Of a stretch of 40,298 bases of DNA, positions 1 to 35,361 are shown in pieces. Origin of the DNA: Synechococcales cyanobacterium S06 (GTDB taxonomy: Bacteria > Cyanobacteriota > Cyanobacteriia > Cyanobacteriales > JAABRE01); contig JAABRE010000047.1 of assembly GCA_011391125.1 (NCBI GenBank), positions 1 through 40,298 on the forward strand. Reading direction: 5' to 3'. Numbering within the stretch: the stretch's first letter is position 1; the number at the start of each line of letters is the position of its first letter. The notes below the pieces were generated by a model. It saw only the letters and a list, made by a program, of their open reading frames with translations. It had not been told where the DNA came from and searched no databases. The position numbers and the translations under genes were made by a program.

Positions 1-181
1 ACTACACATTGTTTATTTTTTTTATAAACCATTTTGATTTGAATGTAAGGTTTTTTTCTATTTTAAGGGCCAATCCTAGCATTTTTTGAAAAATTTTTGA
101 ACCGTAACTCTTTGATTAGTAAGGCTTTTGACTATCTTTCAGCAAGCCCTATTTAGTCATTAGATTTTTGATCATCTGTAA
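1..181. other. Gene-free left edge
   Basis: I see no coding frame with gene-like content here. An imperfect inverted repeat lies at about 110-152, where AAGGCTT on one side matches AAGCCCT on the other. It reads like the degenerate end of an insertion sequence or MITE, but no transposase or target duplication is visible. With the terminator at 182-220, the gap before the first gene is 296 bases. Confidence 0.4.
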
Positions 182-220
182 TAAAAAAACAGAAAGATTA
201 ATATTTCTTAATCTGTTTTA
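182..220 (-). terminator. Terminator after the kinase operon
   Basis: On the minus strand an imperfect stem (ACAGATTAA pairing with TTAATCT plus CTGT, with a two-base TT bulge) is followed by a run of seven T. It lies about 80 bases past the stop of the last operon gene at 297. It looks like a Rho-independent terminator closing the minus-strand cluster. Confidence 0.65.
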
Positions 221-296
221 TGGGCAATCTTTATTTCATAAAATTCAGAGAAAACCGAGAAAATCAGAAATAAATTGTTTAGAAAATGATAAAATA

Positions 297-2504
297 TTAA
301 TGAATTGTTAATTGTTCGGGGGAAGTAATATTAATAATATTTTTCCCATTTATTAAACTAGGTTTTAAATCATATATTTCTATTTTTCTTCCTTTTAATG
401 TCTGAGGTGGAGGAGCAGTAGGTAATTGGTTAAGAATTTCTCTTGTTGTTCTAATTGTATAAGCTCCTGTTTGATCCATTATAAATATCTCAACTTGGTT
501 GTTTGAACTAATAGTGTAACCATCAATTGTGTCACTTAAAGTTATTTTTTTCCCTTCAGTTGGGGGAATTTGACTTGAATCAATGGGACGAGGTTCTGGT
601 GTTATTGTTGTTGGTGGGGATGTAATTAAACCAATTAAACCGAAGGAAATTACTCCACCTATTACCCCACCTGTAATTGGTAATAATGGTCGTTTTTTAA
701 GCTCCTTGATAAGCTTATTAATTATGTTTTTTATTTTCTCTATTCGTCCTCCTGAATTAGTTAGTGATGATTTTTTTAAATCAGTAAGAATATGAGAAGC
801 AGATTGATAACGTTGTGTAGGTTCAGTTTTCACCATTTTCTCAATAATTGAAATTAAATTGGGGTCAATTTTTTTTGGTAAAAAAGAAGTCAAATTCCAC
901 TGATTATCTTGATATAATTTTCCCAAATGTTTATTCTGATTAACAGTATTAGGAAAATAACCTGTTAATAAACTAATGCAGGTAACGCCCAAACTATAAA
1001 TATCACTACTATAAGTTATTTTAGTATTAAAACTCATTTGTTCAGGAGAAGCATAATATTCTGTGCCAATCATTTTAGAAGTGGTGGGATTTTGATTACT
1101 CAATTGTTTAGAGATACCAAAATCAATTAAAAAGTATTTATTATCTTTAGTTTTAATAATATTTTCTGGTTTGATGTCACGATGTATGACATTTTCTTGA
1201 TGTATAAACTCTAAAATTTCTGACATTTGTTTTAAGAAATCTCTAATTTGTTCTTGAGAAAATGAACCTTCTAAATCATAAAGATCAGATAAATTTTTCC
1301 CTTCAATAAATTGTTGTACAATGTAATATCTATTTTCTTCTTCAAAATACGCAATTAACCGGGGAATTTGAGGATGTTCTCCTAATAGTTCCAGTTGTAT
1401 AGCTTCTTGTTCAAATAACTGAGAAATCTGGGAAAATTGAGAATCGGTAACATTAAAAATTAATTGTTTTATTATACAGGGCTTATTCAAAGCATCTAAA
1501 TTCAGAGCCTTAAATACTTTACCAAAGCCTCCTTCACCTAAGAATTGTATAGGTTGATATATATTTCTTAGTAATAAGTGATTACCACAGAAAATGCAAT
1601 AGTTTTGAGGATTATTAATGGTTTTACCACAGTTAGGATTAAGACAAATAGTCGGAGTAGTTGTTATCTTACTGTTAGGTTTTTTCTGATTTTTGGAGAT
1701 TAAATTAACAGCATTTTGTTGCATTAATATTTGTGTTTTTTGTTTTTGAGTAGTGGTCTTTTGATAGGCCTTTTGTTGTAATTGTTCGTATTTTTCTTTA
1801 ATTTGATTTAACTCATATAATTCTTTTTGTAAATTTTTAATCTGATTATTTAAGAGAATATTTTTCTGAGCTTGTTTTTGTAATTGTTCTAATTCAGCTT
1901 GAATTTCTGGTATTAAGGAATTTTCTTGTTCTAATTGATTTAATTGCTGTTGTAACTGAGCGATTTCTTCTTGGGATTGGGATTTAAGTTCAGCTTCTTT
2001 TTGAGCTTTATTCCATGCTTTTAATTCATTAAAACGACTTTGTTCTGCTTCTTGTCTTAAACGCATTAATTCTTGTTTTAATTGATTAGTTTCTTCTTCA
2101 GGGTCTAATGGAGGAATAAAAGTTAAAGATTGATAATTAGAATTAATAAAACTCTGATAATACCAAATCGCTAAATTTCTGCTATTTTGTAACATTTTTA
2201 AAGCAATTTCATAATTGCCCATATCTCCATGTACCGCATCATTACCAGCTTTTCTAATATCATGAAACATATCTTCAATATTATCAGGTAAATGTCGGCT
2301 TAATCTATTTAATAAATCTAATTGTTTCTCTCTTTCTGATGTATAAATACCAAGTTGTGCGGCTACAGATTGAGCTAAGATTTCCCCAAATCTTCGTAGT
2401 AAAAATAAAGTAACTACAGGGTAAGTTCTAAAAAATAATTCTGCTGAACTAGCCAAAGATACTAAATTCTCATCAGGTAAAAAACTAAAATTTGGTGATT
2501 TCAT
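297..2504 (-). CDS. DUF4145-like / Ser-Thr protein kinase, transmembrane, with extracellular tail domain
   Basis: 735 aa. Residues 1-120 resemble the DUF4145-type domain at the N terminus of type I restriction HsdR subunits (RRFGEILAQ near 37-45, IRKAGNDAVHG at 83-93). Residues about 135-265 are a Gln/Glu/Leu-rich coiled coil. Cys287, 292, 303 and 306 form a zinc-ribbon pattern. The kinase domain spans about 318-580, with the Gly loop GEGGFGKV (323-330), Lys346, HRD (441-443) and DFG (461-463) all present, so it should be active. One membrane span (605-627) puts the last 105 residues outside the cytoplasm. That tail resembles the C-terminal domain of the PhnD-like protein upstream and of the 942-aa kinase. 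The ATG overlaps the stop of the PhnD-like gene by 4 nt, which suggests translational coupling. The kinase call is firm. The substrate, the ligand and the role of the N-terminal domain are unknown. Confidence 0.93.
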   Translation of the reverse strand: MKSPNFSFLPDENLVSLASSAELFFRTYPVVTLFLLRRFGEILAQSVAAQLGIYTSEREKQLDLLNRLSRHLPDNIEDMFHDIRKAGNDAVHGDMGNYEIALKMLQNSRNLAIWYYQSFINSNYQSLTFIPPLDPEEETNQLKQELMRLRQEAEQSRFNELKAWNKAQKEAELKSQSQEEIAQLQQQLNQLEQENSLIPEIQAELEQLQKQAQKNILLNNQIKNLQKELYELNQIKEKYEQLQQKAYQKTTTQKQKTQILMQQNAVNLISKNQKKPNSKITTTPTICLNPNCGKTINNPQNYCIFCGNHLLLRNIYQPIQFLGEGGFGKVFKALNLDALNKPCIIKQLIFNVTDSQFSQISQLFEQEAIQLELLGEHPQIPRLIAYFEEENRYYIVQQFIEGKNLSDLYDLEGSFSQEQIRDFLKQMSEILEFIHQENVIHRDIKPENIIKTKDNKYFLIDFGISKQLSNQNPTTSKMIGTEYYASPEQMSFNTKITYSSDIYSLGVTCISLLTGYFPNTVNQNKHLGKLYQDNQWNLTSFLPKKIDPNLISIIEKMVKTEPTQRYQSASHILTDLKKSSLTNSGGRIEKIKNIINKLIKELKKRPLLPITGGVIGGVISFGLIGLITSPPTTITPEPRPIDSSQIPPTEGKKITLSDTIDGYTISSNNQVEIFIMDQTGAYTIRTTREILNQLPTAPPPQTLKGRKIEIYDLKPSLINGKNIINITSPEQLTIH

Positions 2505-3664
2505 ATTTTTATTTGATTACTATTGTTAATAATTAATACTTTTTTCCCTTCTTTAATTACTGGTTCAATCTCAAAAATCTTAATTGGTTTATTAATTAAA
2601 TTATCGGGATTATCAACTAAAGATTTAGATACAATAACTGTATAATCTTCTGATTCAATACTTTTAATAGAGAATTCAATCGAATCATTAGTGACTAATT
2701 TATAAGACTTTATTTGACCAGTAATTATCTTATTACTAGCTGATTCTGAACAAAATAAGGACACGACGGGAGCATCAAAATCTGTACAGGATAAGGCATT
2801 TTCTACTTTACGAGCTATTTTAATAAACTCGGTATAATCTAATTCTTTATCCTCAGCCGGATTTTTTCCTGGTCCATAATTAGCCATTGATTGTGTTAAA
2901 TATGAAGCATTAATTAAGACATCTTTAATTATTTTCTGGTCTTCTTTGTTTAATTCAGGAGATAAATAAACTCCTCCCCCCGGAATATCTCGACTAACTT
3001 GTAATATTTTTAATTCTTTTTGAAATTTAACATTGTTGTTGTAAAAATTATTATATAAACCAACGCCAACATCATATTCGCCAGATTTTACTTTCTCAAA
3101 AATGCCATTAATATTAACATCAATGTTAGCTTTAACGCCATATAAATCATAAATAGGCATATAAAAAGTTCCTGTTGAATTTATGTCTCCTAAAGCGATT
3201 TTTGTCTCTTCTTTTATATCCTGAATCGACTTAATATTACTATCCTTTTTCGTAAAAATAGCTGATTTATAATATTTGGGACTATTAGGATAAGTTCTAG
3301 TAGCAAAGGTATAATTATTATCCTTAGAGGCGATCGCCACCATGGGAGAAGCAGCAAAAGCAATATCCCAATTTTTCTGTGCTATTTGACTTTTGGCATC
3401 TTGATAACTATAACGGTTATCACCAACTAAGGTAATTTGAACATTTTTAAGGTTACATTTTAAGTGAGAAATTAAAGGATAAAAGAAGATTTGAGGCATA
3501 TAAATGCCAATAGTTAAGTTATTTTTACTAATAGTTTGTTTTCCCTTAAACCATGTATTTACTGGACAAATACCAATACCTGTTATTGCCCCTCTTATTA
3601 ATCCGATAGCAGCTATTGAACCTAATGAGGCGATCGCTATTTTCACAATTTTATTTTGAAACAT
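2501..3664 (-). CDS. PhnD-like substrate-binding protein, membrane-anchored, with C-terminal beta domain
   Basis: 387 aa. A hydrophobic segment at about 8-32 should act as an uncleaved signal anchor. Residues 48-290 have the PhnD/SsuA/TctC-type periplasmic binding fold, with landmarks WDIAFAASP (99-107), IALGDINSTGTFYMP (156-170) and GGGVYLSPEL (229-238). Similar proteins bind phosphate, phosphite or phosphonate for ABC importers, but no importer ATPase or permease gene is next to it. Cys293 and Cys305 match a Cys pair in the 942-aa kinase and could form a disulfide. Residues about 313-387 are a small beta-rich domain shared with both kinases. It is most likely the extracytoplasmic sensing partner of the kinase encoded immediately downstream (4-nt overlap). 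An AAGGAGA ribosome-binding site lies 9 nt before the ATG. Confidence 0.85.
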   Translation of the reverse strand: MFQNKIVKIAIASLGSIAAIGLIRGAITGIGICPVNTWFKGKQTISKNNLTIGIYMPQIFFYPLISHLKCNLKNVQITLVGDNRYSYQDAKSQIAQKNWDIAFAASPMVAIASKDNNYTFATRTYPNSPKYYKSAIFTKKDSNIKSIQDIKEETKIALGDINSTGTFYMPIYDLYGVKANIDVNINGIFEKVKSGEYDVGVGLYNNFYNNNVKFQKELKILQVSRDIPGGGVYLSPELNKEDQKIIKDVLINASYLTQSMANYGPGKNPAEDKELDYTEFIKIARKVENALSCTDFDAPVVSLFCSESASNKIITGQIKSYKLVTNDSIEFSIKSIESEDYTVIVSKSLVDNPDNLINKPIKIFEIEPVIKEGKKVLIINNSNQIKI

Positions 3665-3684
3665 AAATAAAGTCTCCTTAAATT

Positions 3685-3801
3685 TTAATTAATAACTAAT
3701 TGTTTTTCACTGGTAATAATTAATTGAGCCGAATTATCTTGAATAACAGGTTGAACACCATAAACTTTAACTATACCATCTAATAAGTCATCATAATCTT
3801 T
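3685..3801 (-). pseudogene. Remnant of a third PhnD/kinase C-terminal domain
   Basis: Between the Excalibur gene and the PhnD-like gene, one minus-strand frame is open for 38 codons from KDYDDLLDGIVKVYG to a TAA at 3685-3687, ending TSEKQLVIN. It matches the tails of the three neighbouring proteins: LLDGIVKVYGVQPVI against LINKPIKIFEIEPVI of the PhnD-like protein and LKGRKIEIYDLKPSL of the kinase. An in-frame TAA at 3802-3804 precedes it and there is no start codon. It is best read as the stub of a lost tandem copy. Its spacing to the next ATG resembles that of a real upstream cistron. Confidence 0.6.
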
Positions 3802-3815
3802 TTATTGAACATAAA

Positions 3816-4040
3816 TTACCTCTTAGATTCACAACCAATTCCATCCTTATCACTATCAAATTTATGGGGGTCATTACCAATAACTTTGAAATTACGATAA
3901 GTTATATCTTTACAGTTTAAATCTGGTGGTGGCGGAGGAATACAAACATCAGGATAACTAGCATCACATTTATTAGATGCCAAGATCATTGGTGGAAATA
4001 ATAAGAAAAAACAAATAATTAATAGTAATAACTTTTTCAT
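3816..4040 (-). CDS. Small exported Excalibur-motif protein
   Basis: 74 aa. A basic start (MKK), a hydrophobic run to about residue 17 and a likely cleavage after ILA (about residue 21) form a signal peptide. The mature part has a short Pro run followed by the Excalibur calcium-binding pattern, NCKDI then DPHKFDSDKDGIGCES, with two conserved Cys and the D-x-D-x-DG loop. Excalibur domains are often joined to, or encoded beside, secreted thermonuclease-like enzymes and surface proteins. Here the gene starts 1 nt after the nucleotidase stop codon in the same direction, so it is almost certainly co-transcribed. A calcium-dependent accessory role for the secreted enzymes is plausible but unproven. 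Confidence 0.8.
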   Translation of the reverse strand: MKKLLLLIICFFLLFPPMILASNKCDASYPDVCIPPPPPDLNCKDITYRNFKVIGNDPHKFDSDKDGIGCESKR

Positions 4041-4041
4041 T

Positions 4042-4983
4042 TTATTTCGCCCAAATAATTAAATTACGTCGTCTTTCACTATCTTTTTGGTCAGGGGTTA
4101 ATTCATACCATTTTTTAACATTAAACTTTTCAGTTTGATATAAATTAGCTTCCCATGAACCATATAATGGGTTAGGTAAAACCACTAAAGTAGGTAATGA
4201 TTTATTTTGAGAAATACCAAATTGATTTTGTAATTTTTCCACTTCTTTAATTTTAGTTGAGTTAGTTTGAGCAGTTTCTAAAGAGTCTGATAAATCATTG
4301 AGATTATCTCCCATTAAAACGACAATATTATGTTTTTTCCCATCTACTAAACCATCACTAATAGCTTTTCTACGCCATTCTTTAGCCTGAGAAACTTTAC
4401 CATTAATCTCCTTAGTAAATTCACCTTGTAAGATTACAGTTTTATCATTAACTCCTGTAAAACCGACTTTTTTTAAATTATCAATAGTCATTTTTTCAAG
4501 ATCATTTTCCTGAGCATTTTTAGTTTTAACTTCCCGATTAGAAACAAAAAAGACTGTACCCTGATTATTATTAACATAATTAATAAAATCTACTGCACCG
4601 GGTAAAGATTGAGCTTTTGCAGCTAAGACCCATTGATTCCATGTCTCACTAGAAAACCCATTTTCTTGACCGATTAAAGAAGCTTGATAAGGACTATTAT
4701 CAAGGATAGTTTCATCTATATCCACTACAACAGCTGGGTTTTCAATACCTTGTAATTTAGCATTATCAAAAGCAATTTTAGCTAAATTAAAAGCTTGATA
4801 GGATAAAGCTTTTAATTCGCCGGATTGTTGATACCAATTTAAAGATAATAAAGATTGATCATTAATTTCTTTACCAGTAATTTTACTAATGATTTGTTCC
4901 TTAGCAAAAGTTTTAAAACTGATTAAAGCTGAAGTTGTTAATAGTAATCCAAAGAAAGTATAAATTAAGTTTTTTCTTTTCAT
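4042..4983 (-). CDS. Secreted 5'-nucleotidase, lipoprotein e(P4) / HAD acid phosphatase family
   Basis: 313 aa from the ATG at 4983. A longer frame reaches 5109 but would overlap the nuclease 3' end and bury the signal peptide (MKRKNLIYTFFGLLL), so I reject it. The HAD class C acid phosphatase motifs are present: VVVDIDETILDN with Asp88 and Asp90, FFVSNRE with Ser148, and GDNLND at 225-230. Family members dephosphorylate 5'-nucleotides and other phosphomonoesters outside the cytoplasm. There is no lipobox Cys, so unlike e(P4) itself this one is probably soluble in the periplasm or released. It lies 46 nt after the nuclease gene, and its product would act on the nucleotides the nuclease releases. 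The family call is secure; the exact substrate is not. Confidence 0.9.
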   Translation of the reverse strand: MKRKNLIYTFFGLLLTTSALISFKTFAKEQIISKITGKEINDQSLLSLNWYQQSGELKALSYQAFNLAKIAFDNAKLQGIENPAVVVDIDETILDNSPYQASLIGQENGFSSETWNQWVLAAKAQSLPGAVDFINYVNNNQGTVFFVSNREVKTKNAQENDLEKMTIDNLKKVGFTGVNDKTVILQGEFTKEINGKVSQAKEWRRKAISDGLVDGKKHNIVVLMGDNLNDLSDSLETAQTNSTKIKEVEKLQNQFGISQNKSLPTLVVLPNPLYGSWEANLYQTEKFNVKKWYELTPDQKDSERRRNLIIWAK

Positions 4984-5029
4984 GGTAATTTTTTTCTTTA
5001 TTTTTAATAGAAACCAAACATTAAAATAA

Positions 5030-6739
5030 TTATAAATTAATTTTAACGATAACAGGATCATGGTCACTAGGGGAGTTGGTAAATTCAGTATTAATATGTA
5101 TCTGTTCATATTTTACTTGATTTTCTAAATTTTTAGTGACAAAAATATGATCAATTGTTTGAGCATTTCCCTCGTAAATATAGGTATATCTTTGATTAGG
5201 CTTAATAGTTTCTGTTAAGTTAACCAAAAGATTTCCTTTTAATACTTTAAGGGGATTATTAAACTCAAAGTCGTTAAAATCACCTAAAACTATTACTTGA
5301 GAATTTTGATTGTCATTAACTAATGTTTGAATATAGTTATTAACTACTTTTGCTTGCATAAGACGCTCGTTTTCTTGTCCATTAAGGGGGGGTTGGCTTA
5401 TTCCGAATAAAGAACTACTACCACCTTTGGAGCTAAAATGATTATTAATTAAGGTGATTTCTTGTCCTTGAAATTTAAACTTTGTTACCAAAGGTTTACG
5501 AGTATCTTTAAAGGCAATATCGTCTATTTTAGTAACAGAATTATTAATTAATTCTACTCTATTAGGATTATAAAGATAACCTACTCTAATATTAGCTCCG
5601 GGTTCACCACCATCTTCATTATTATTCGGGGGAATATCAATAAATTGATAATTGATCTTAGCTAATTGACTAATTTCTTTGATTAAAGTTTGATAAGTTA
5701 AATTAGCTTCAACTATACCATTATCTTCTGAACCACTATTATCTTGAATTTCTTGTAAAGCAATAATATCGGGAGATTTAAGATTATTGACTATTTGTGA
5801 TGCGATAGTTTTAAATTGTCCTTTTTCTATATCTTTATCACCATCATTATCATTAGTATCTAAATTATGGACATTATAACTAGCAATAGTTAACTGATTT
5901 TTTTGAGGATGTAAAGAGGTTACTTGAGGAACTAATTTAGAAGATTTAACAGTAAAAGGTTGACTGATATAAACTTCATAATTACCGAAGTTATAACTCA
6001 TAATTCCAGTAATATTACCTAAATAATCACCGACTTTAATATTAGATGGAATCTCTTTTAATAACTCCTTATCTAACTGAAGTTGTATTCTTTCGGGGTT
6101 AAAATCTTTTTCACCAATAACAAGTGTTTGACGTGAACTTAAATTGTCGGTTTTTCTACCTTTATCCGTAACAGTAAATATTTCTCCATATTTATTAAGA
6201 GGACTAATAGCCATGGTATCTTTTATTGTCACTCTCATTCCTTCTAAACTTTCGTAAAAATCAATGCCATCTTCTGTGGGGTCAAAGATAGTTAAATTAT
6301 CATTATCTATTATTTCTGTAGGGGGTTTATATCCTTTTTCGCCGATAATTATAGCTGGGGGTAAAGGATTATTTTTTGATAAGATAGAAAGGGAATTGAG
6401 GTTAAGTGTAGTAACAGAAAGATTATTTTCTTTAGGAGTGTATTCTGTTACTTTACCCTCCACTATTACCTCGTCACCAATATTTATTTTTGATTTTGAT
6501 TTGGTGAATACAAAAATACCTTCAGATGTTAACTGATTATTATCAGAGAGGGGATTTTGGAGATAAAACCCATTCTGATTAATTTCGGTAACAATTCCTT
6601 TTGTTGTTACTTCCTGATTAAGATAAGGAGAAATATGGGTTTGACCTTGAATCTCAGGAATGGCTGTATAATTCTGAGCTACACTTTTACAACTTAAACA
6701 AAGAGAAAATAAACTGAAAATCAGTAATTTAAATTTCAT
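5030..6739 (-). CDS. Secreted nuclease, endonuclease/exonuclease/phosphatase family (ExeM/NucH-like)
   Basis: 569 aa. There is an N-terminal signal sequence; Cys14 and Cys17 lie in a weak lipobox context (CLSC). An OB-fold-like region (about 30-120, QNGFYLQNP) precedes the EEP domain at about 283-569. Its catalytic set is visible: Asn289 (SYNVHNL), Glu330 (LQEIQ), His434 (NNHFSS), Asp487/Asn489 (LGDFND) and Asp559-His560 (SDHDP). Proteins of this layout are extracellular DNases or sugar-non-specific nucleases used to digest extracellular DNA. The gene lies 24 nt downstream of the kinase-PhnD fusion and 46 nt upstream of the nucleotidase, which points to co-expression. I am confident of the fold and export, and less so of DNA over RNA preference. 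Confidence 0.9.
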   Translation of the reverse strand: MKFKLLIFSLFSLCLSCKSVAQNYTAIPEIQGQTHISPYLNQEVTTKGIVTEINQNGFYLQNPLSDNNQLTSEGIFVFTKSKSKINIGDEVIVEGKVTEYTPKENNLSVTTLNLNSLSILSKNNPLPPAIIIGEKGYKPPTEIIDNDNLTIFDPTEDGIDFYESLEGMRVTIKDTMAISPLNKYGEIFTVTDKGRKTDNLSSRQTLVIGEKDFNPERIQLQLDKELLKEIPSNIKVGDYLGNITGIMSYNFGNYEVYISQPFTVKSSKLVPQVTSLHPQKNQLTIASYNVHNLDTNDNDGDKDIEKGQFKTIASQIVNNLKSPDIIALQEIQDNSGSEDNGIVEANLTYQTLIKEISQLAKINYQFIDIPPNNNEDGGEPGANIRVGYLYNPNRVELINNSVTKIDDIAFKDTRKPLVTKFKFQGQEITLINNHFSSKGGSSSLFGISQPPLNGQENERLMQAKVVNNYIQTLVNDNQNSQVIVLGDFNDFEFNNPLKVLKGNLLVNLTETIKPNQRYTYIYEGNAQTIDHIFVTKNLENQVKYEQIHINTEFTNSPSDHDPVIVKINL

Positions 6740-6763
6740 ATTTTTATTAACTTTTTTCTTGTA

Positions 6764-9592
6764 TTAATTAATAATTTTAATTTGTTGAATTTGAGTAATT
6801 TTAATGGCTAAACCCTGAGCAGTTTTCTGAGGATCATTGGGAACTTGTATATTAATTTGTTTTCCTTGTAAAGCATTTAATTCACCATTTACTAACTTGT
6901 TAAATACTTTTTTATCAAGAGTAACAAGATAAATATTAGAATCCTGACCAGTAACTTTTAAAAGATAATTATCTCCTTGTGTAGAAATACCATTAACAGT
7001 ACCCGTCATTTCGTAAGGAATAAAACCTTCGGGACAATATAATTTAACAGGATTTTTGCTAAAATCTGTACAAATAGTTATTAATTCTACCCGTTCAATA
7101 ATTTTCTCAAATTCAGTATAATCAACTTCTTTGCCTTCACCATAATTGGTCTGTTCATAACTTTTAATTTGAGGGGAAGCAGATAACATTACTTTTTTAA
7201 TTGAGTTTTGATCTTGTTCACTTAAATTGGGAGAAATATAAACTCCTGAACCTGGTAACTTTCTACTAACACCAATTAATCTTAAATCAGGGTATTTCTT
7301 ATTAATAATATCACCAACGGCTGCTGAACCAATATCGACTTCTTTATTAATAACCATCTTTCTAATTTCTCCTCCTTTATGTCCCATATTTACAGAAATA
7401 GTTTTTCCGTATAAATCATAAACGGGCATATAAAAACTAGAGGATGAATTAAAATCACCTAAAGCAATTGTTGTACTGGGTTTTAGATCATCTAATGATT
7501 GAATGGGGGAATCCTTATGAACAATCAAACCAGCTTCATAAAAAGGTTTACCAGGGAACATATCAGCAATATGTTGATAACCTTCTTTTTTAGAATGAAT
7601 AGAAATAATGGGAGATAAAGTAAAAGCTACATCCCATCTTTTATCAGAAATTCTATGCATAGCTTCCTGATAAGAAAGAGTTTTATCACCATTAATACTT
7701 ATGGTAATTTTATTCCCTTTTAAATATTTAAAATAATTACTAGGAATTAACTCAGATTCTAAATGTTGTCGGAGTTCTGTATATCTTTCAGGTTCACCCA
7801 ATGTACCAATAGTAAGAGTATCAATACTAACTTTGGCTTTAGTAAAATAGGGGATAGATTTAATAAATAATCCTAAAAATACTACTCCTATTACACCACC
7901 CGCTATTAATAATCCTAATGGTAATGGTTTAGGTTTAGGTTTAGGTTGATTAGATTCTGATTTATCTGATTGAATACCTTTTTCAATATCTTCGGATTGT
8001 GATTCAATAGAAGAGGTAGTTTTCTCAGATGGATTGGTATTAGTATCTAAACCTTGTTGTGTAGTGTCCTCAGTTATTGGTGAAATTTCTGTCGTTTTTG
8101 GTTCATTTATGGGGTCTTCTATTATTTCTGTCTCTTTAGGTTCAGAGTTTAAATCATCTAAAATTTCTTGAGTCAAAGTATATCTTTGTTGATATTGAAT
8201 AGCGGTCATTTTCTCAAGAATTTGAATTAGTTTAGCTGATAAATGATTAGCTTTTAATTGCCATTCACCTTCATTTAAATTACTAATTCTTAATCCCGTA
8301 GCTGCTTGAATAGCAATTATTCCTACCGCATAAATATCACTACTGAATTGAGGTTGACCTTGTAATTGTTCAAAAGGCATATAACCTTTTGTACCAATAA
8401 CAATAGTTCCCTTTGTTGTATTATTAACAACTTCTTTAACTGCGCCAAAATCAATTAAATATATTTGTTGATCATTAATATTTCTAATGAGATTAGAAGG
8501 TTTTATATCTCGATGAATAATAGATAGAGAATGAACATTTTGAAGAGGCTTTAAAATATCTTTTAACAAATTAATAATCTCAGATTCAGTGAGTTTATTA
8601 CCTACTAAAATTTCTTCTTCTAAAGTATAGCCATCAATAAATTCTTGTACTAAAAAAAACTGATTATTTTCTTCAAAATAAGCTTTTAAATCGGGAATAC
8701 CCTCAATTTTATTTAATTTATCAAGACTGCGAGCTTCTCTTTCAAATAAATTTTTAGCACTATTAATAGTTCCTTCATCAGAAAATTGGGGTCGAAACTG
8801 TTTAACAACAACTTTTTTGTTAAAAGAATCAGTGTCCTCTGCTAAATAAGTTTGTCCAAAATTACCCGCTCCCAAAATATCAGTAATTTTATAATGATTA
8901 TTTATAATTGAACCAATAGATAATAAATTAATATTACTAAATTCTGATTCTGATTCACCGGATTCTAATTTTATTTGTTCAGCTTCATTTTGAGCAATAA
9001 TAATTGTTTGATTAACTTGGTTTGTATCTTTAGGTTTATTTTGAATATCATTGATTTCTTGAATGACATTTTTATAGTTAGAATCTAAAGTTTCTAATTC
9101 TAATATAGTTTCCTCTTTTTTCGGTATTTTATTCGGTTTAGGAGGTTCACTAAAAGCAGGAATAGGAATATTTTCCTTATATTTTCCATTTAATTTTAAA
9201 TACCAAATACTTAATTTATGACAGTTATTTAATTGTTTTAATGCTATTTTATAATTTTTATAGTTTTCTATTTGATTACTACCACTGACTTCGTGATTAG
9301 CTTTATTACCCGCTATTCTAATCTGATGAAATAAATTAACAACATTACTTTTAATAATGCCCTTTTCTTCTAGCTTATTTAATAAAATATATTGACTCTC
9401 TCGTGGATTAGTATAGAGTGAAATAGAAGCGGCTAATTCTTTCGCTAATAATTCCCCAAATTGTCTAATTTTCATCAAAGAAGTAATCGGGTCTTGATGA
9501 ATATATTTCTCGGCAAATATACAAAATTCCGCTAATTCGGGATAGCTATTTTTAAATATTTGAAAATTAATTGTTTCGTAAGTATCTATCAT
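6764..9592 (-). CDS. Ser/Thr kinase fused to PhnD-like binding domain (DUF4145-like, kinase, membrane span, PhnD, tail domain)
   Basis: 942 aa. Residues 1-135 are a DUF4145-like domain (IRQFGELLAKELAA, IRIAGNKANHE). The kinase domain spans about 233-480 with Gly loop GAGNFGQT (241-248), Lys264, HRD (360-362) and DFG (381-383). An acidic, Ser/Thr/Pro-rich linker (480-556) leads to one membrane span (557-580). Outside the cytoplasm are a PhnD-like binding domain (591-840; WDVAFTLSP, IALGDFNSSSSFYMP), a Cys841/Cys853 pair and a C-terminal beta domain (862-942). The layout is that of a one-component receptor kinase: ligand binding outside, phosphorylation inside. It carries in one chain what the 735-aa kinase and 387-aa PhnD-like protein carry as two. 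It starts 13 nt after the HTH gene and 24 nt before the nuclease gene. No clear Shine-Dalgarno is seen. The ligand is unknown; phosphate, phosphite or phosphonate is a family-based guess. Confidence 0.92.
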   Translation of the reverse strand: MIDTYETINFQIFKNSYPELAEFCIFAEKYIHQDPITSLMKIRQFGELLAKELAASISLYTNPRESQYILLNKLEEKGIIKSNVVNLFHQIRIAGNKANHEVSGSNQIENYKNYKIALKQLNNCHKLSIWYLKLNGKYKENIPIPAFSEPPKPNKIPKKEETILELETLDSNYKNVIQEINDIQNKPKDTNQVNQTIIIAQNEAEQIKLESGESESEFSNINLLSIGSIINNHYKITDILGAGNFGQTYLAEDTDSFNKKVVVKQFRPQFSDEGTINSAKNLFEREARSLDKLNKIEGIPDLKAYFEENNQFFLVQEFIDGYTLEEEILVGNKLTESEIINLLKDILKPLQNVHSLSIIHRDIKPSNLIRNINDQQIYLIDFGAVKEVVNNTTKGTIVIGTKGYMPFEQLQGQPQFSSDIYAVGIIAIQAATGLRISNLNEGEWQLKANHLSAKLIQILEKMTAIQYQQRYTLTQEILDDLNSEPKETEIIEDPINEPKTTEISPITEDTTQQGLDTNTNPSEKTTSSIESQSEDIEKGIQSDKSESNQPKPKPKPLPLGLLIAGGVIGVVFLGLFIKSIPYFTKAKVSIDTLTIGTLGEPERYTELRQHLESELIPSNYFKYLKGNKITISINGDKTLSYQEAMHRISDKRWDVAFTLSPIISIHSKKEGYQHIADMFPGKPFYEAGLIVHKDSPIQSLDDLKPSTTIALGDFNSSSSFYMPVYDLYGKTISVNMGHKGGEIRKMVINKEVDIGSAAVGDIINKKYPDLRLIGVSRKLPGSGVYISPNLSEQDQNSIKKVMLSASPQIKSYEQTNYGEGKEVDYTEFEKIIERVELITICTDFSKNPVKLYCPEGFIPYEMTGTVNGISTQGDNYLLKVTGQDSNIYLVTLDKKVFNKLVNGELNALQGKQINIQVPNDPQKTAQGLAIKITQIQQIKIIN

Positions 9593-9605
9593 AAATTAAA
9601 TTATC

Positions 9606-9851
9606 TTAGTAATTTTTTAATAAATCTTGACCTTTTTGACCCAGATTCTTTATCTGTTCTTCAATTAATTTAATCGCCATTTTTGAGGGATTATTATGAC
9701 CATTTTCCCAACGATTAACGGTAGGAAAAACTACACCCAAAGAATTAGCAAATTCTTCCTGAGTTAATTGTAGTTCTTTTCGTAATTCTCGTATGATTTC
9801 ACCAATAAATGGTTGTTTTGTATATTTTTTCTCCAGATGTATATAAAACAA
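9606..9851 (-). CDS. Small XRE-type helix-turn-helix regulator (TTG start proposed)
   Basis: About 81 aa from a TTG at 9849-9851. No ATG exists between the tRNA and the HTH; the only longer reading runs back through the tRNA-Pro gene and is artefactual. The core is a Cro/C1-type HTH: GEIIRELRKELQLTQEEFAN, then LGVVFPTVNRWENG, where the recognition helix is followed by the typical WENG. The gene begins about 20 nt past the 3' end of tRNA-Pro and ends 13 nt before the kinase-PhnD fusion, so it probably heads the operon and may regulate it. The start is uncertain: an alternative is a 5' truncated gene that survives beside the tRNA. Confidence 0.7.
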   Translation of the reverse strand: MFYIHLEKKYTKQPFIGEIIRELRKELQLTQEEFANSLGVVFPTVNRWENGHNNPSKMAIKLIEEQIKNLGQKGQDLLKNY

Positions 9852-9870
9852 TATACAATAGTTGAATAAA

Positions 9871-9944
9871 TCGGGATGACAGGATTTGAACCTGCGGCTT
9901 CCGCGTCCCGAACGCGGCGCGCTACCAAGCTGCGCTACATCCCG
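9871..9944 (-). tRNA. trnP: tRNA-Pro (anticodon CGG)
   Basis: The minus strand folds as a full cloverleaf: acceptor CGGGATG pairing with CATCCCG, D arm with AGCTTGGTAGC, anticodon stem CCGCG/CGCGG with loop TTCGGGA (anticodon CGG), and T arm with GGTTCAAATCC. The discriminator is A and no CCA is encoded. The operon with the HTH gene and the kinases starts just past its 3' end, a usual position for integrated elements, but no second copy of the tRNA 3' end occurs in the window. Confidence 0.97.
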
Positions 9945-9953
9945 TTTAATGGC

Positions 9954-9959
9954 ATTATA
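9954..9959 (-). promoter_or_regulatory. Probable -10 box for tRNA-Pro (and perhaps the operon)
   Basis: TATAAT on the minus strand, 9 nt upstream of the tRNA 5' end. No good -35 hexamer is seen at 16-18 nt. Since there is no obvious separate promoter between the tRNA and the HTH gene, read-through from here into the operon is possible. Confidence 0.4.
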
Positions 9960-10292
9960 ACCCATTCGTAAACAATTATTAATTAATTCTGCTAAATTGT
10001 CAATAACTTGGTTAACATTGCCAAAATAAGTGCAATCTTTGTCCTAGTTTGCAAATAATAGCAACGAGCAATTTGCTTCCCTTGTTACGCAGGGTGTTTT
10101 CATGCTAAATTTTTGATGGGGAACAAGGACTCCTAAACAAGGAGTTAGGGAGTTAAGAATATCGTTCCTCTAATCCCCCAATCCCCCAATACCCTAAGTC
10201 TCTACCGTTTTTACTTCCGAGAAAGAAAACGCCCTGCTTGTTACGGTGATTGCTAAACTTGAGCTAATCTTACGGAATTATTGCTTAATCAG
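9960..10292. other. Intergenic region between divergent tRNA-Pro and permease
   Basis: Apart from the -10 box of the tRNA and the MITE copy at 10090-10236, I see no gene. Sequence 10246-10292 leads to the permease start and has no strong Shine-Dalgarno. Confidence 0.6.
10081..10245. mobile_element. MITE-like element, copy A (with 9-bp target duplication)
   Basis: Element 10090-10236 (147 bp) has inverted ends CAGGGTGTTTTC and GAAAACGCCCTG (11 of 12 matched). It is flanked by a perfect 9-bp direct repeat CTTGTTACG at 10081-10089 and 10237-10245. Reverse-complemented, it matches copy B at 36544-36731 over both ends, including the stretch ACTTAGGGTATTGGGGGATT. It contains no coding frame, so a transposase must act in trans. 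Confidence 0.8.
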
Positions 10293-11321
10293 ATGAATTT
10301 TGGTCAATGGCTTGGTTTAATTACCCTTATTATTTGTTTTTATATTATTTGGCAGATTCGACAAATAATATTATTGCTTTTTACTGCTGTTATTTTAGCT
10401 ACTGCTTTAAATCGTTTAGTCAGAAAATTACAAGTTTGGGGAATTAAACGCAAATTTGCGATTCCGCTGATTCTTTTTGGCTGTTTTATCTTCGCTATTT
10501 TGGTGTTTAATTTACTTATTCCTCCTTTTATTGATCAGTTTCAAGAATTACTTAAACTTCTCCCTAAAGGGTTTGAACAGTTATATGCTAAATTGCACAA
10601 CTTAGAATCACAAAATTTTGACTGGCTTCCTCCTCTACCTGCTACCTCAGAAATTATAAATCAGTTACAATTAACCGATTTATTTCAAAATTTTCTCTCC
10701 TTTTTCTCTAATTCTTTCAATGCTTTTTTACAGGTATTACTGATTTTAATCTTAACAGTAATGCTTTTATCTAATCCTTTTGCTTATCGTCGCGCTTTTC
10801 TATTACTTTTTCCCTCTTTTTATCGTCGTCGCACTGATGAAATTTTATCGGAATGTGAGTTGGCTTTAGGTAATTGGTTAACGGGAATTACTATTACTTC
10901 TCTGTTTATCGGTGTCTCATGTGGTTTGGGTTTGTCGGTTTTACAAGTTCGTTTAGTCTTAGCTCATTCTTTTATAGCAGGTATGCTTAATTTTATTCCC
11001 AATATTGGTCCAACTACCAGTCTTATTTTTCCGATTATGATTGCTTTATTGGATGATCCTTGGAAAATTATTCCGATTTTTATTTGGTATTTTATTGTCC
11101 AAAATCTTGAAAGTTATTGGCTTTCACCTACTATTATGGCTAAACAGGTTTCTCTTTTACCTGCGATTACTTTATCAGCTCAAATTTTCTGTGCTTCTAC
11201 TTTAGGTTTGTTAGGTTTGATATTAGCTTTACCCCTTACTGTGGTTGCCAAAACTTGGATTGAAGCTCTTTTATTTGAGGATATTCTTGATAAATGGGAA
11301 GTGGATAAAATTAATTCTTAA
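10293..11321 (+). CDS. AI-2E / PerM-family membrane permease
   Basis: 342 aa from ATG 10293 (MNFGQWLGLITL); a TTG at 10281 would add four residues. Several hydrophobic segments are visible: about 8-40 as a near-continuous pair, 55-75, 140-165, 205-235, 240-265 and 295-325. The C-terminal region has the family hallmark FIPNIGPTTSLIFP followed by IVQNLESYWLSPTIMAK. The family (UPF0118, PerM/TqsA) includes proposed autoinducer-2 exporters and Na+/H+ antiporters; the substrate cannot be told from sequence, and cyanobacterial members are mostly uncharacterised. It is a single-gene unit, followed directly by a terminator that overlaps its stop codon. Confidence 0.9.
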   Translation: MNFGQWLGLITLIICFYIIWQIRQIILLLFTAVILATALNRLVRKLQVWGIKRKFAIPLILFGCFIFAILVFNLLIPPFIDQFQELLKLLPKGFEQLYAKLHNLESQNFDWLPPLPATSEIINQLQLTDLFQNFLSFFSNSFNAFLQVLLILILTVMLLSNPFAYRRAFLLLFPSFYRRRTDEILSECELALGNWLTGITITSLFIGVSCGLGLSVLQVRLVLAHSFIAGMLNFIPNIGPTTSLIFPIMIALLDDPWKIIPIFIWYFIVQNLESYWLSPTIMAKQVSLLPAITLSAQIFCASTLGLLGLILALPLTVVAKTWIEALLFEDILDKWEVDKINS

Positions 11322-15060: not shown

Positions 15061-17922
15061 TCAAGTGGCATAGTTAAGGGGAATTTCTCGATCAAAAATA
15101 CCTAAACCAGCGCGTAAAATTAAAGAAGAATCTAAACCTGAAATTGTTTGATCTTCGGTGACATCACCCAAAATAACAGGATCAATGCGGGGAAAAGCAT
15201 CAAAACCAGTCACATAATCCACCGTAATTAAAGAATTAAGCGTAGCTTGATCTAAACCGCTATAAGAGCCATTTCCGGTGACATCTCCTAAATAGGTAAC
15301 TTGATGAACTGCTCGATCGCCCACTGTCTTAATGGAGGTATTATTATTAATTAAAACATCAGTAATTTCGATTAAATCAGTGGAATTATAAACAGCAGTG
15401 GGTAAAACTTCGGCATCTAAAAATAATAAATCTTGGTAATTTTCCGTGATTAAATTATCACCTACATTATTACCAGATAGAGTAATTTTAGCGATTCCTG
15501 AAGTAGCTAAATCAGAGTTTATAGTCCATTGATCAAATAATTTATCATTAAGATTAACCCCATTTATCTTAATAGTTTCAGGGTTATAAATTAAGGAAAA
15601 TTCGACACTATTAACCTCTTGATTGGTTTCCAAACTAATAGGAAGACCAGTGTTTAAATCATTAGCAGGAACATCAATTATTTGGCTAGGACCACGACTA
15701 AAATCAGGTAAAATTAAAGCAACTTCTTCCTTTTGAACTGTCAAAGGATCCTCATCACTAGCTCCAGTTTCTGTAATGGTAAAAGAAGTAGTATAATTAT
15801 CCCCTGGAGTACCATCACCATTACCATCAAGAAGAGAACCTAAAATACTAACAAAAGCAGATGATCCACTAATTAATGTTACCTGATATTCACCTGCTTC
15901 TAATAACCCTCCAGTGGCCACAAAAGTTATCTTATCAAGGGATTCATTCAATAATAATGAACCATTGATATTATTACCATTAGGAGCTGTTAAAATAACA
16001 TCAGGTTCTCCATAAGGAAAAGGTGGAGGTGCTGTTTGTGGTCCTGAATATAAATTCAGTACATAAGGATTTAAACTACGAGGAAAAGTAACCTCAAAAC
16101 CTGTATTATTAGGGGTAAAGGCAAAGGTATCCACTTGTAAAATATCAGGTTGGATGAAAATATTTGCGTTTGCAACAGTTGTTTCAAAACCATTTTCATT
16201 AAGTGAAACAGAGGATAAAGTTAAGGGACTTTCCACATTGGAAGGAGCGTCAGGAGCTACTAGAAAATTTAGTTCGACTAAACTACCCGAACTAATGGGA
16301 AGAGGATTACTACCAAAAACACTAAAATTAATTTTACCTTTATCTTCTTGATGATTAGCTGTAATATACCAATTATTATCAGCAGTTAAAGTACCCAAGT
16401 TTATTCCTTCTAATAAGATTGTTTCTCCTCCTATTCCAATTCCAACCGTAGGTAAAAGACGATCTGGTACTAATATCAATTCACCATTAGATATATCTTC
16501 ACCTGGTGTTAGAGAAGGAATATCTATAGATATAGCTGGACCAGAATAAAGAGTAAAAAGATTAGCATCATAATCAAGAACAAAATCTGCTGATAATAAT
16601 CCTGCTGCATTATTTAAGTCAAGATAAACCGTAAAAACCTGATTCGGACTAACTTTATAATCATATAAGTCAGGATTATCGGCTACAACATCACGAATAC
16701 TAACAATTCTTGTATCAGAAGGTAAACTTCCGGGGTCTGGAATCTCTACCCAAATATCTTCCGCACCTTGATTTTCAGATTCAAGATTACCAGAAGTTGC
16801 TCCTGCTACATAAATTTGATTAAGATTATTTACCGTAATAGCATTAGCAAAATCATCGCCATTGGTGCTATATTTTTCCTGTTCAATGGATAGTTTTGTA
16901 CCATTAGGACCATATTGCAAAACAAAAGCATCAAAACCGCCTTCATTTGCGCCATTTTCTAACCCTAAATAACCTAAAGTATGACCAGAAATAATGATAT
17001 TACCCTGACTATTTACGGTGATACTTTCAGCTGTGTCATAACCTTCACTGGCAATTTGTTCCACCTTTTTTTCCGGTGTTAACCAAACTTGATTACCGTC
17101 AGGGGTAAAACGGGTTAATAACACATCAAAACTGTTAGGATTATCTTTTTCCTTAACCAAACCTGCGGCATAAATATTACCTTTTTCATCTATCGTAATA
17201 CTTTTTGTATAACCGTTGGCGAGGAGATTATTATTATCTAAAATGTCATTTTTCCAAGCTAAAGTACCATTATTTTGATACTTAGCAATCCAACCATTAT
17301 AACTACCAGCTCCTAAATCTTGATAACCAGTAAGATAGATATTATTATTATCATCTAACACTAAATCCAAAGCTATATCATCATTAGAAGTGCCAAATTG
17401 TTTAAGCCAAATTTCTTCACCAGAACTGTCATATTTAGCTACCCAAGCATCTCTTCCACCGTTATTAATACCATTTAAACTGCCTTCGGTATAACCAGTT
17501 AAATAAAAATTACCCCGACTATCTACTTGGAAACCCTTAACTTCATCATCAAAAAAACTGCCAAATTGATATGCAGTAATTGGTGTACCTGTGCTATCAT
17601 ATTTCGCAATAAAAAAGTCAGTATTGCCGTAATTTCTATTACCTAAAATCCCTTTTGTATTACCAACAAGATAAATATTACCGTCATTATCAACGGAAAT
17701 ACTATCAGCTATATCCTCAAAAAGTTTGCCAGATTGTTTAAGTAAAACTTGAGTACCGTTTTGGTCATATTTAGCAATAAAAAAGTCTTTGTCAACTTTA
17801 TTATCAGGTAAACTCCTTTCCATAAAACCAGTGAGATAAACATTACCAAGTTTATCTACGAAAATATCAAGAGCTTGATCAATTTTATCGCTACCAAATT
17901 GTTTAATAGTTAAGTCAGTCAT
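15061..17922 (-). CDS. Large SBBP propeller / cohesin-like / Ig-like / dockerin-like protein (paralogue 1)
   Basis: 953 aa. Seven SBBP-type repeats cover about 1-395, each with a core like DGNIYLVG or RGNFYLTGYTEG, as expected for one seven-bladed propeller. They are followed by a cohesin-like domain (about 403-590), an Ig-like SbsA/Big_5-type region (592-720, ending at EAGEYQVTLISG), a second cohesin-like domain (735-875) and a dockerin-like pair of calcium loops (GDVTGNGSYSGLDQ and GDVTEDQTISGLDS, about 876-950). No N-terminal signal peptide or membrane span is seen, yet all these domains are typical of extracellular proteins, so export by a type I or other non-Sec route is likely. The next gene upstream is a diverged paralogue. 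The region just before the ATG is a heptamer array with no clear ribosome-binding site. The function is unknown; adhesion or matrix assembly is plausible. Confidence 0.82.
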   Translation of the reverse strand: MTDLTIKQFGSDKIDQALDIFVDKLGNVYLTGFMERSLPDNKVDKDFFIAKYDQNGTQVLLKQSGKLFEDIADSISVDNDGNIYLVGNTKGILGNRNYGNTDFFIAKYDSTGTPITAYQFGSFFDDEVKGFQVDSRGNFYLTGYTEGSLNGINNGGRDAWVAKYDSSGEEIWLKQFGTSNDDIALDLVLDDNNNIYLTGYQDLGAGSYNGWIAKYQNNGTLAWKNDILDNNNLLANGYTKSITIDEKGNIYAAGLVKEKDNPNSFDVLLTRFTPDGNQVWLTPEKKVEQIASEGYDTAESITVNSQGNIIISGHTLGYLGLENGANEGGFDAFVLQYGPNGTKLSIEQEKYSTNGDDFANAITVNNLNQIYVAGATSGNLESENQGAEDIWVEIPDPGSLPSDTRIVSIRDVVADNPDLYDYKVSPNQVFTVYLDLNNAAGLLSADFVLDYDANLFTLYSGPAISIDIPSLTPGEDISNGELILVPDRLLPTVGIGIGGETILLEGINLGTLTADNNWYITANHQEDKGKINFSVFGSNPLPISSGSLVELNFLVAPDAPSNVESPLTLSSVSLNENGFETTVANANIFIQPDILQVDTFAFTPNNTGFEVTFPRSLNPYVLNLYSGPQTAPPPFPYGEPDVILTAPNGNNINGSLLLNESLDKITFVATGGLLEAGEYQVTLISGSSAFVSILGSLLDGNGDGTPGDNYTTSFTITETGASDEDPLTVQKEEVALILPDFSRGPSQIIDVPANDLNTGLPISLETNQEVNSVEFSLIYNPETIKINGVNLNDKLFDQWTINSDLATSGIAKITLSGNNVGDNLITENYQDLLFLDAEVLPTAVYNSTDLIEITDVLINNNTSIKTVGDRAVHQVTYLGDVTGNGSYSGLDQATLNSLITVDYVTGFDAFPRIDPVILGDVTEDQTISGLDSSLILRAGLGIFDREIPLNYAT

Positions 17923-34618: not shown

Positions 34619-34864
34619 ATGAGTATTACTATTCCCCATGAAATATTAAAAGCCGCTGAACTTAGTGAAGATGAATTAAAATTAGAACTTGCCCTCTTAT
34701 TGTATCAACAAAAAAAGATTAGTAGTGGTCAAATTAGAGCTTGGTTAGGTTTAACTGTTTTGGAATTTCAACATGAATTGGCACTCAGAAATTTAACTCT
34801 CAATTATGATATTGATGATCTCGAAGCTGATATTAAAACCCTAAAATCAATGGGAGTTTTATGA
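34619..34864 (+). CDS. UPF0175 family antitoxin
   Basis: 81 aa. It starts MSITIPHEILKAAELSEDE and has the UPF0175 pattern of ELKLELALLLYQQKKISSGQIRAWLGL followed by a ribbon-like tail ending in LKSMGVL. The family members are small DNA-binding antitoxins paired with PIN-like toxins. The stop overlaps the start of the DUF3368 gene by 4 nt (ATGA), the classic toxin-antitoxin arrangement. An AGGA sequence lies about 10 nt before the ATG. Confidence 0.88.
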   Translation: MSITIPHEILKAAELSEDELKLELALLLYQQKKISSGQIRAWLGLTVLEFQHELALRNLTLNYDIDDLEADIKTLKSMGVL

Positions 34865-35361
34865 TTATTATTAGCGATACTTCTCCTCTTACTAATCTAG
34901 CGGCCATTGGACAATTAGACTTGTTGTATCAGCTTTATGAAGAAATTATTATTCCCAAAGCTGTTTATAATGAATTAGTAAAAGCAAAAACTAATAAACC
35001 TGTTCCTGGAGCATTAGAAGTACAATCTTTATTATGGATAAAAACACAATCTATTAACAACGATTTTCAACTTATTGAACTACTTTCAAATTATAATAAT
35101 ATCCATCAAGGTGAAGCAGAAGCAATTATTTTAGCTCTTGAATTAGGAGCAAATATATTATTAATGGATGAAAAAAGAGGTCGGGAATTGGCAGTTTTTT
35201 ATAATTTAAAAGTAACAGGTTTATTAGGTATTTTATTACAAGCTAAACATCAAAAAATTATTGTTTCAGTAAAACCAGTCCTCGATGAATTAATACAAAA
35301 AGCAGATTTTCGTATTAGTAAAATCCTTTATCAAGCTCTTTTAAAAGAAGCAAATGAATAA
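34861..35361 (+). CDS. DUF3368 / PIN-like toxin
   Basis: 166 aa. The PIN-like acidic residues are visible: ISDTSPL near the start (Asp6), GEAEAIILALELGANILLMDEKRGRELA in the middle (Glu and Asp residues), and LLGILLQAK after it. DUF3368 proteins are putative RNases of the PIN superfamily. The pairing with UPF0175 and the 4-nt overlap support a type II toxin-antitoxin module. The pair lies inside what is otherwise an lptB-permease cluster. Confidence 0.87.
   Translation: MIIISDTSPLTNLAAIGQLDLLYQLYEEIIIPKAVYNELVKAKTNKPVPGALEVQSLLWIKTQSINNDFQLIELLSNYNNIHQGEAEAIILALELGANILLMDEKRGRELAVFYNLKVTGLLGILLQAKHQKIIVSVKPVLDELIQKADFRISKILYQALLKEANE

Follow-up and report, generated by a model that had tools for sequence, protein, structure and literature searches.

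The contig JAABRE010000047.1 of Synechococcales cyanobacterium S06 (assembly GCA_011391125.1) was analysed over 40,298 nucleotides, the whole of which is called the window here. The subject of this report is a block of seven genes at positions 297–9851, built around membrane receptors with a PhnD-like outer part and including a predicted secreted nuclease and a phosphatase. An earlier note on this DNA had described seven same-strand genes with very short spacing, and that description held: all seven open reading frames (ORFs) are present on the minus strand, with intergenic gaps, from the regulator gene HTH down to the kinase gene K2, of 13, 24, 46, 1, 151 and −4 bp. The catalytic motifs of the kinases and of the EEP and HAD enzymes are intact by regular-expression search, and a consensus scan found five terminator-like sites in 1–10300, every one on the plus strand. 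The left end of the window is the contig end, and any genes beyond 297, like the far side of the block, lie off the contig.

The block starts with a small XRE helix-turn-helix regulator gene (HTH, 9606–9851, recognized by Pfam, with a TTG start at 9851), the open frame of which extends upstream into a tRNA-Pro (CGG) gene at 9871–9944, also on the minus strand. The 3′ end of this tRNA gene directly precedes the block, the GC content steps there (28.4% in 1–9870 versus 36.2% from 10281 onward), and the tRNA gene is a possible island boundary and candidate insertion site. A tRNA-Pro (TGG) gene at G000:C33 75190–75310 (locus L220:1452–1570; loci, genomes and contigs of the survey are cited by their L, G and C numbers) has its 3′ end repeated 45 bp downstream and shares its last 25 bases with the tRNA-Pro of the window; it might be an old attachment site. 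A tRNA-flanked island was rejected as a general rule, since a scan of 20 related loci gave no tRNA. The HTH subfamily itself recurs in 12 of 92 focal PhnD-OB loci (L102 and L194 are the same locus) and in none of 20 control regions.

The second gene, K1 (6764–9592), encodes a receptor of 942 aa, delimited by Pfam and structure models, in which a DUF4145 domain, a Ser/Thr kinase, a transmembrane segment, a PhnD-like domain and an OB domain follow one another. The DUF4145 part (residues 27–102, 9287–9514; 32.3 bits against a cut-off of 23.1) is HEPN-clan and HsdR-N-like, the membership of DUF4145 in the HEPN clan being stated in the available part of PMC3710099; the kinase (residues 234–472, 8177–8893) matches Pfam Pkinase, with catalytic motifs found by regular expression. 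A single predicted transmembrane segment (residues 559–577, 7862–7918) precedes the PhnD-like ectodomain of periplasmic-binding fold (7103–7792, by PF12974 and a model) and the C-terminal OB fold (6767–7051, by structure model). At the other end of the block, by Pfam and transmembrane prediction, PBP (2501–3664) consists of a transmembrane segment, a PhnD-like domain (PF12974) and an OB domain without a kinase, and overlaps by 4 bp with K2 (297–2504), in which a DUF4145-like part, a long linker, a zinc-ribbon-like stretch, a Ser/Thr kinase, a transmembrane segment and an OB domain were recognized. The zinc-ribbon match in the linker is weak, and the DUF4145 score of K2 is 20 bits, under the cut-off of 23.1; the PF12974 scores of K1 and PBP are 68.5 and 70.3 bits against a cut-off of 27. 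The earlier note had counted one binding protein and two kinases, which stands for both kinases and for PBP and needs the correction that K1 carries a PhnD-OB domain of its own, so that the block has two PhnD-OB receptors. Its “restriction-like” N-terminus was right in kind, as K2 (7e-34) and K1 (3e-31) match the N-terminal part of the HsdR-type family NF008521, both far below its cut-off. Matches to the PADLOC models PD-T4-6 (1e-89 and 1e-80) cover the kinase part only, and the same models match one ORF of a control region. The nearest relative of K1, with about 75% ectodomain identity, is found in Planktothrix paucivesiculata PCC 9631 (L091:6940–9696), where no recognised partner gene stands alongside and the DUF4145 part lies in a separate short frame.

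Between the receptors lie three genes for predicted exported proteins. The EEP-family nuclease (5030–6739), predicted to be secreted and ExeM/NucH-like, scores above the cut-offs of PF19580 and PF03372 and keeps its motifs by regular expression, with 212 bits against the cut-off of 300 for the curated ExeM/NucH family NF033681. It is followed by a HAD acid phosphatase or e(P4)-like nucleotidase (4042–4983; PF03767, 138.9 bits, cut-off 27), for which the ORF list has an earlier start at 5109, within the EEP gene, the signal-peptide-like start being 4983. The D-x-D-E-T motif is present as DIDET at 88, the HAD IIIB fold was recognized, and the match to TIGR01533 (model positions 22–261 of 273) reaches 205.4 bits, below the cut-off of 216.05; the record of a plasmid-borne relative names it e(P4). 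The third is a free-standing exported Excalibur protein (3816–4040; 19.3 bits, under the cut-off of 22), a domain that in Nostoc linckia forms the C-terminus of an SNase. The 151-bp gap between the Excalibur and PBP genes contains, by eye, a fragment like the OB C-terminus of another receptor (about 3685–3790, minus strand), probably a gene remnant.

That this co-encoding is not accidental is borne out by other genomes: a receptor, a phosphatase and a predicted exported nuclease are linked in 12, 11 of them directly and the twelfth (G249) by inference, from one contig that terminates in PhnD and another that starts with an SNase tail and the phosphatase. The distance between the phosphatase and receptor genes is 14–2487 bp in the 11 direct cases. 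Besides the window, these comprise G082 (L059), with a receptor kinase, a histidine kinase, a response regulator, the phosphatase and HTH, and, 3 kb farther, a gene for a lipoprotein-like SNase; Nostoc linckia FACHB-104, Nostoc FACHB-892 and N. paludosum FACHB-159, with PhnD-OB, DUF4145-kinase-OB, a convergent phosphatase and SNase; G610, G589, G601 and G561, with a sensor-NERD protein, PhnD-OB-SNase and the phosphatase; and two plasmid loci, in Nostoc C052 and N. commune SO-36. The linked groups differ in the order and strand of their genes, in fusion state and in nuclease family, and their receptors occupy at least three places in the receptor tree. The 12 genomes are related and do not stand for 12 independent events; counted by independent pairs, the co-linkage of phosphatase and nuclease gave a median p of 0.125 over 5 pairs, too few for significance. 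Phosphatase, SNase and HTH genes of these families were absent from twenty 16-kb control regions of the same genomes, whose coordinates were chosen arbitrarily and by hand.

Among 145 Nostocaceae genomes the phosphatase occurs in 6 (8 copies) and PhnD-OB in 18 (20 copies); the two phosphatase copies in G601 do not differ over 4784 bases, which leaves 7 distinct ones: 5 with direct linkage, 1 with inferred linkage and 1 unlinked. In the sample of 195 genomes of the window’s order, the phosphatase was found in five: it is linked in the window and in G082 and unlinked in G049 (on a 9.9-kb contig), while those of G030 and G163, which sit at the edge of a contig or on a short one, were kept outside the linkage count. 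The ectodomain is carried by four plasmids of PLSDB, one conjugative, one mobilizable and two non-mobilizable; the phosphatase adjoins it in three, and the fourth has NERD and PhnD-OB-SNase without the phosphatase.

A predicted exported nuclease belongs to 12 of 12 linked sets: it is EEP in the window and SNase elsewhere, in many cases as a fusion with the receptor, and two sets have an S1/P1 nuclease in addition. The linkage foreseen by the earlier note is thus conserved for receptor, phosphatase and an exported nuclease and is not conserved for EEP as that nuclease. EEP linkage was rejected as a conserved core: 22 of 60 genomes have EEP relatives, none of 8 annotated neighbourhoods of which holds a PhnD-OB gene, and no EEP match at 1e-8 was obtained in the 92 focal loci, window excluded. 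That SNase fills the place of EEP is as expected if the breakdown of outside nucleic acid is what matters. The S1/P1 nuclease gene, of a third secreted nuclease family, is transcribed divergently from the cassette's HTH gene at L223:3256–4218 and L184:2663–3622, both in Nostocaceae.

These data bear on a rival explanation of the block, in which unrelated exported enzymes and duplicated kinases accumulated behind a tRNA gene without acting jointly. A low-GC block at tRNA-Pro that holds a gene remnant and two receptors would fit such accretion, as would the EEP gene, linked in the window alone, and the nearest K1 relative, a solitary gene whose DUF4145 part occupies a frame of its own. The recurrence of the linkage in 12 genomes, in varied gene order, and the close one-strand spacing speak against accretion, which appears quite improbable.

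The strongest argument for a function in biological conflict comes from the inner side of the receptor, where different modules are attached to the same outer part. The ectodomain is joined to a kinase with DUF4145 in the window and L059, to kinases with other N-termini in L056–L058 and L069–L071, to Swt1-type HEPN domains in L061 and L102, to NERD in L068, L116 and L224, to CHAT in L067 and L076 and to DUF4145 alone in L197, while some receptors carry just a transmembrane segment; genes for UvrD-type helicases adjoin several receptors. Active-site motifs are kept in 2 of 2 HEPN, 4 of 4 NERD and 1 of 2 CHAT modules checked. On a quick tree of 68 rows the inner-module label changes 18 times (minimum 7; none of 200 shuffles as low; HEPN 2, kinase 5), the position of the window PBP being unsure because two long branches meet there. 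A NERD, UvrD, HEPN or SNase gene is fused or within 3 kb in 30 of 73 PhnD-OB loci and 0 of 20 controls, and when kinase, CHAT and phosphatase genes are added the figures are 53 of 73 and 2 of 20, a contrast that is inflated because the probes were themselves taken from focal loci. Control by a Ser/Thr kinase, which the earlier note had taken to govern the system, is one variant; elsewhere its place is taken by a NERD protein or by a histidine kinase and response regulator.

In the 815-aa protein of the N. commune SO-36 plasmid, NERD, PhnD-like, OB and SNase domains follow in this order, and in the related NERD-PhnD protein of L068 the transmembrane segment lies between NERD and PhnD. From this order and the position of that segment, the SO-36 protein should bear a predicted nuclease on each face of the membrane. 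At other loci NERD and PhnD-OB-SNase are separate genes.

Several other arrangements were seen around these receptors. Response regulators with a ParE-like C-terminal end (L097:6193–7149, 23.3 bits, and L059:10578–11537, by similarity and by eye) are encoded beside a histidine kinase and a receptor, and the UvrD helicases adjoining the receptors of L056 and L058 have a ParE-like N-terminus. The histidine kinases beside some receptors have an outer sensor part that recurs in L103:3442–5391, L184:5073–7736 and L223:6155–8821, where a NERD domain at the C-terminus replaces the kinase; in L111 this sensor part is joined directly to PhnD-OB. A gene for a tubulin-like protein immediately adjoins the PhnD-OB gene in L198:4241–7495 and L226:10880–14179.

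The K1 ectodomain has matches at 1e-10 in 59 of the 195 genomes of the order; 26 of these (the window’s genome included) match at 36% identity or more and the remainder at about 30% or less, and the family analysis in this sample was built on the 26. A degenerate-pattern scan of contigs from 84,980 species confirmed 45 loci, all cyanobacterial by record title. A phage-borne system was rejected, as a scan of viral contigs (33 pattern stretches) confirmed no relative. The PhnD part was modelled with a pLDDT of 92.9 and its structure compared alone; its nearest solved folds are PtxB, PhnD, ArrX and XAC2383 (one XAC2383 entry binds ATP), with a Z score of 21.9 and a root-mean-square deviation of 2.8 over 240 aligned residues for PtxB 5lv1. 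All 44 ectodomain sequences compared share two invariant cysteines, which fits an oxidising compartment. The S-x-S...H motif, described for PtxB as a phosphorus-oxyanion binding signature in the available part of PMC5700983, occurs in K1, and 27 of the 44 have it in a relaxed form. The OB domain, modelled separately, took an OB fold (pLDDT 88.6), and its weak matches (best E 2e-3) are mostly nucleic-acid-binding: Stn1-Ten1, LysRS, Teb1, HIN and RPA.

Taken together, the block is interpreted as a variant of a modular envelope system of cyanobacteria by which nucleic acid from outside is detected and destroyed, most likely as a defence against foreign DNA, a reading to which a probability of about 0.42 is given and which is favoured over phosphorus scavenging. 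More generally, the module is real and conserved, a receptor-centred envelope system for nucleic acid that probably serves conflict and possibly feeding, the swapped NERD, HEPN and CHAT inner modules weighing most in favour of conflict. In such a system the predicted nuclease, EEP here and SNase elsewhere, would cut DNA outside the cytoplasm; the PhnD domain would bind the product nucleotide, and/or the OB domain the chain itself; binding would be signalled across the membrane to the inner effector, which in the window would be K1 and the PBP-K2 pair; the phosphatase would clear nucleotides and so end the signal; and the HTH protein would govern expression. Whether this amounts to a new class of surface immunity, in which a receptor reads foreign nucleic acid or its products, with nucleases on both sides, interchangeable NERD, HEPN, CHAT or kinase effectors and a nucleotidase as off-switch, is a bolder proposal and seems somewhat doubtful.

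Defence genes were sought next to the loci with PADLOC. Among neighbours picked by eye, the G561 cassette is adjoined by a type I HsdR and a candidate defence gene, the cassettes of G601 and of G082 by a type IIG gene, and L102 by a DruE-like gene; HerA lies near the G589 cassette and NERD-UvrD near the G249 phosphatase, a Snf2/DrmD-like helicase stands alongside the SO-36 cassette and a DpdF/GajB-like helicase near that of C052. The same picks, which left out the neighbours of L098, gave no match for two ORFs of L224 and one each of L185, L152 and L198. A random draw, made after removal of near-duplicate focal loci and of the system’s own families, took 115 ORFs from each side, out of 128 eligible in the focal loci and 149 in the controls (150–1300 aa, 17/20 loci each), the HsdR of L189 remaining undrawn. 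At 1e-30 the neighbour ORFs matched JetC (2), JetD, type IIG, Dsr2, BnzB, mad3, PDC-S54 and PDC-S55, an estimated 7–9 distinct ORFs of 115, as some matches may share one ORF; the control ORFs gave at least three matches (a very strong GajB, a kinase and a GlgB-type) among the 25 of 30 families listed. The defence or competition role that the earlier note had offered as an alternative to scavenging fits the NERD, HEPN, CHAT and UvrD partners better, though restriction genes stand beside only some of the loci.

Several observations weigh against a defensive system as described. The difference in the random draw (about 7–9 of 115 versus 3 of 115 in the control families listed) is not significant (Fisher p 0.14–0.33). 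At 1e-6 there was no PADLOC match for the three genes to the right of the block in the window or for four neighbours at L184 (all five scanned overall being unmatched), and at FACHB-104 (L095/L188) one of three neighbours had a partial specificity-type match and two had none. Within 3 kb, 20 of 73 PhnD-OB loci have none of the partners sought, and EEP is linked to a receptor in the window only. The R-x4-6-H motif of HEPN RNases is not formed in the window, where RIAGNKANH and RKAGNDAVH space R and H by 7; the oxyanion motif is incomplete in other ectodomains and in the window PBP, which lacks the histidine; and some OB matches, besides their weak E values, are complement domains, not known nucleic-acid binders. 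The same pair of secreted nuclease and nucleotidase is also commonly used in feeding on extracellular DNA.

The last point leads to the purpose proposed by the earlier note, phosphorus scavenging, in which the nuclease would cut extracellular DNA, the HAD phosphatase free the phosphate, the PhnD-like receptor read phosphate or nucleotide, and the kinases tune expression or uptake. The conserved pairing of nuclease and phosphatase would suit it, matching the nuclease and nucleotidase pairs of degraders of extracellular DNA (PMC8289736, in the part available), as would the S-x-S...H motif of K1 and the closest ectodomain folds, which bind phosphite, phosphonate, phosphate, ATP and G1P. No Pho-box-like repeat, however, stood above shuffles in 11 upstream regions (two of them overlapping window regions), the best region being equalled by 12% of 2-base-block shuffles in a consensus scan, and none of the seven genes at 297–9851 encodes an ABC permease, an ATPase or any other transporter. 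The NERD, HEPN, CHAT and UvrD partners are hard to fit into a feeding pathway, and the distribution is patchy and partly plasmid-borne. Scavenging as the purpose of the block was thus not upheld and is considered rather unlikely. PhnD-OB as an ordinary ABC binding protein was likewise rejected, with no transporter gene in the block and transporter-family scores below cut-off (TIGR01098, 36.7 and 48.5 versus 112.05; TIGR03431, 31.4 and 42.6 versus 261.1).

A further possibility is the regulation of DNA traffic or of the community, i.e., that the module senses extracellular DNA or nucleotides arising in kin lysis, biofilms or competence and adjusts uptake, growth or death, its enzymes making and erasing the signal. 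One outer sensor with many outputs (kinase, histidine kinase with response regulator, CHAT) would be in keeping with this, and a nuclease and a phosphatase could create a nucleotide signal and switch it off; among the annotated neighbours no genes for competence or biofilms were seen, a weak counter-argument as the annotated ones are a minority, and the idea is judged improbable. If the favoured defence reading is true, the system would be an envelope sensor of nucleic acid with nucleases on both membrane faces, a layout not found described, and would suggest a role for cyanobacterial genes recorded as “PhnD/SsuA/transferrin family” or as orphan Ser/Thr kinases; if feeding is true, it would give cyanobacteria a way of recycling phosphorus under the control of a receptor. 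On either reading, the exchange of inner effectors on a single ectodomain opens the question to experiment.

Elsewhere in the window, three features were noted by eye. Two large related proteins with “GNVYLTGYT”-like repeats are encoded at 15061–17922 and 18191–21190; a small PIN-like (VapC-type) protein at 34861–35361 has an ABC ATPase gene on one side and an LptF/G-like gene on the other; and at the right contig end (39924–40286) there is a fragment with a zinc-finger end typical of TnpB/IS605-type proteins.

Among known systems, the ectodomain resembles PhnD, PtxB and HtxB (PF12974) and ArrX and AioX in its fold and, in K1, in the S-x-S...H motif. ArrX and AioX are sensors. Unlike PhnD, PtxB and HtxB, the window receptors are membrane-anchored and OB-fused, often with a cytoplasmic effector, and have no ABC transporter; in contrast to E. 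coli PhnD, none of 44 sequences has Asp at the presumed D205 column, the E177 column not being placeable. The phosphatase shares the HAD IIIB domain and the DIDET motif with the e(P4) lipoprotein 5′-nucleotidase (TIGR01533), but falls below the family cut-off and has no lipobox in its first 45 residues by regular expression. With the conflict proteins of the HEPN, NERD and CHAT type (PMC3710099, PMC8195603 and PMC12839542) the system has effector domains in common, and the portions of these papers available describe DUF4145 fused to restriction or helicase modules and membrane-associated HEPN proteins; the words “periplasmic” and “phosphonate” are absent from their main texts. A PhnD-like ectodomain with NERD, HEPN, CHAT or kinase modules and nuclease partners was not found described in the literature searched (which left preprints and most subscription papers outside) or in the accessible parts of PMC12839542, PMC8195603, PMC3710099 and PMC2176072.

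The gene sets for catabolism of extracellular DNA (PMC8289736, as far as its available text goes) likewise place a secreted nuclease and a nucleotidase together; they have nucleobase or phosphate transport genes nearby in some genomes, whereas the window unit has no transporter and adds a transmembrane receptor with kinase or nuclease effectors. A precedent for the mechanism is SNIPE, because its membrane-held nuclease, with the domains DUF4041 and GIY-YIG, cuts phage DNA during injection (PMC13190303, in the part available). Neither DUF4041 nor GIY-YIG is among the Pfam matches, taken up to E 0.1, for the seven window proteins, and the window system adds an ectodomain of binding-protein and OB type, an exported nuclease and a phosphatase. 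Both have a nuclease at the inner membrane and a variable partner region, and their common target is likely to be DNA crossing the envelope.

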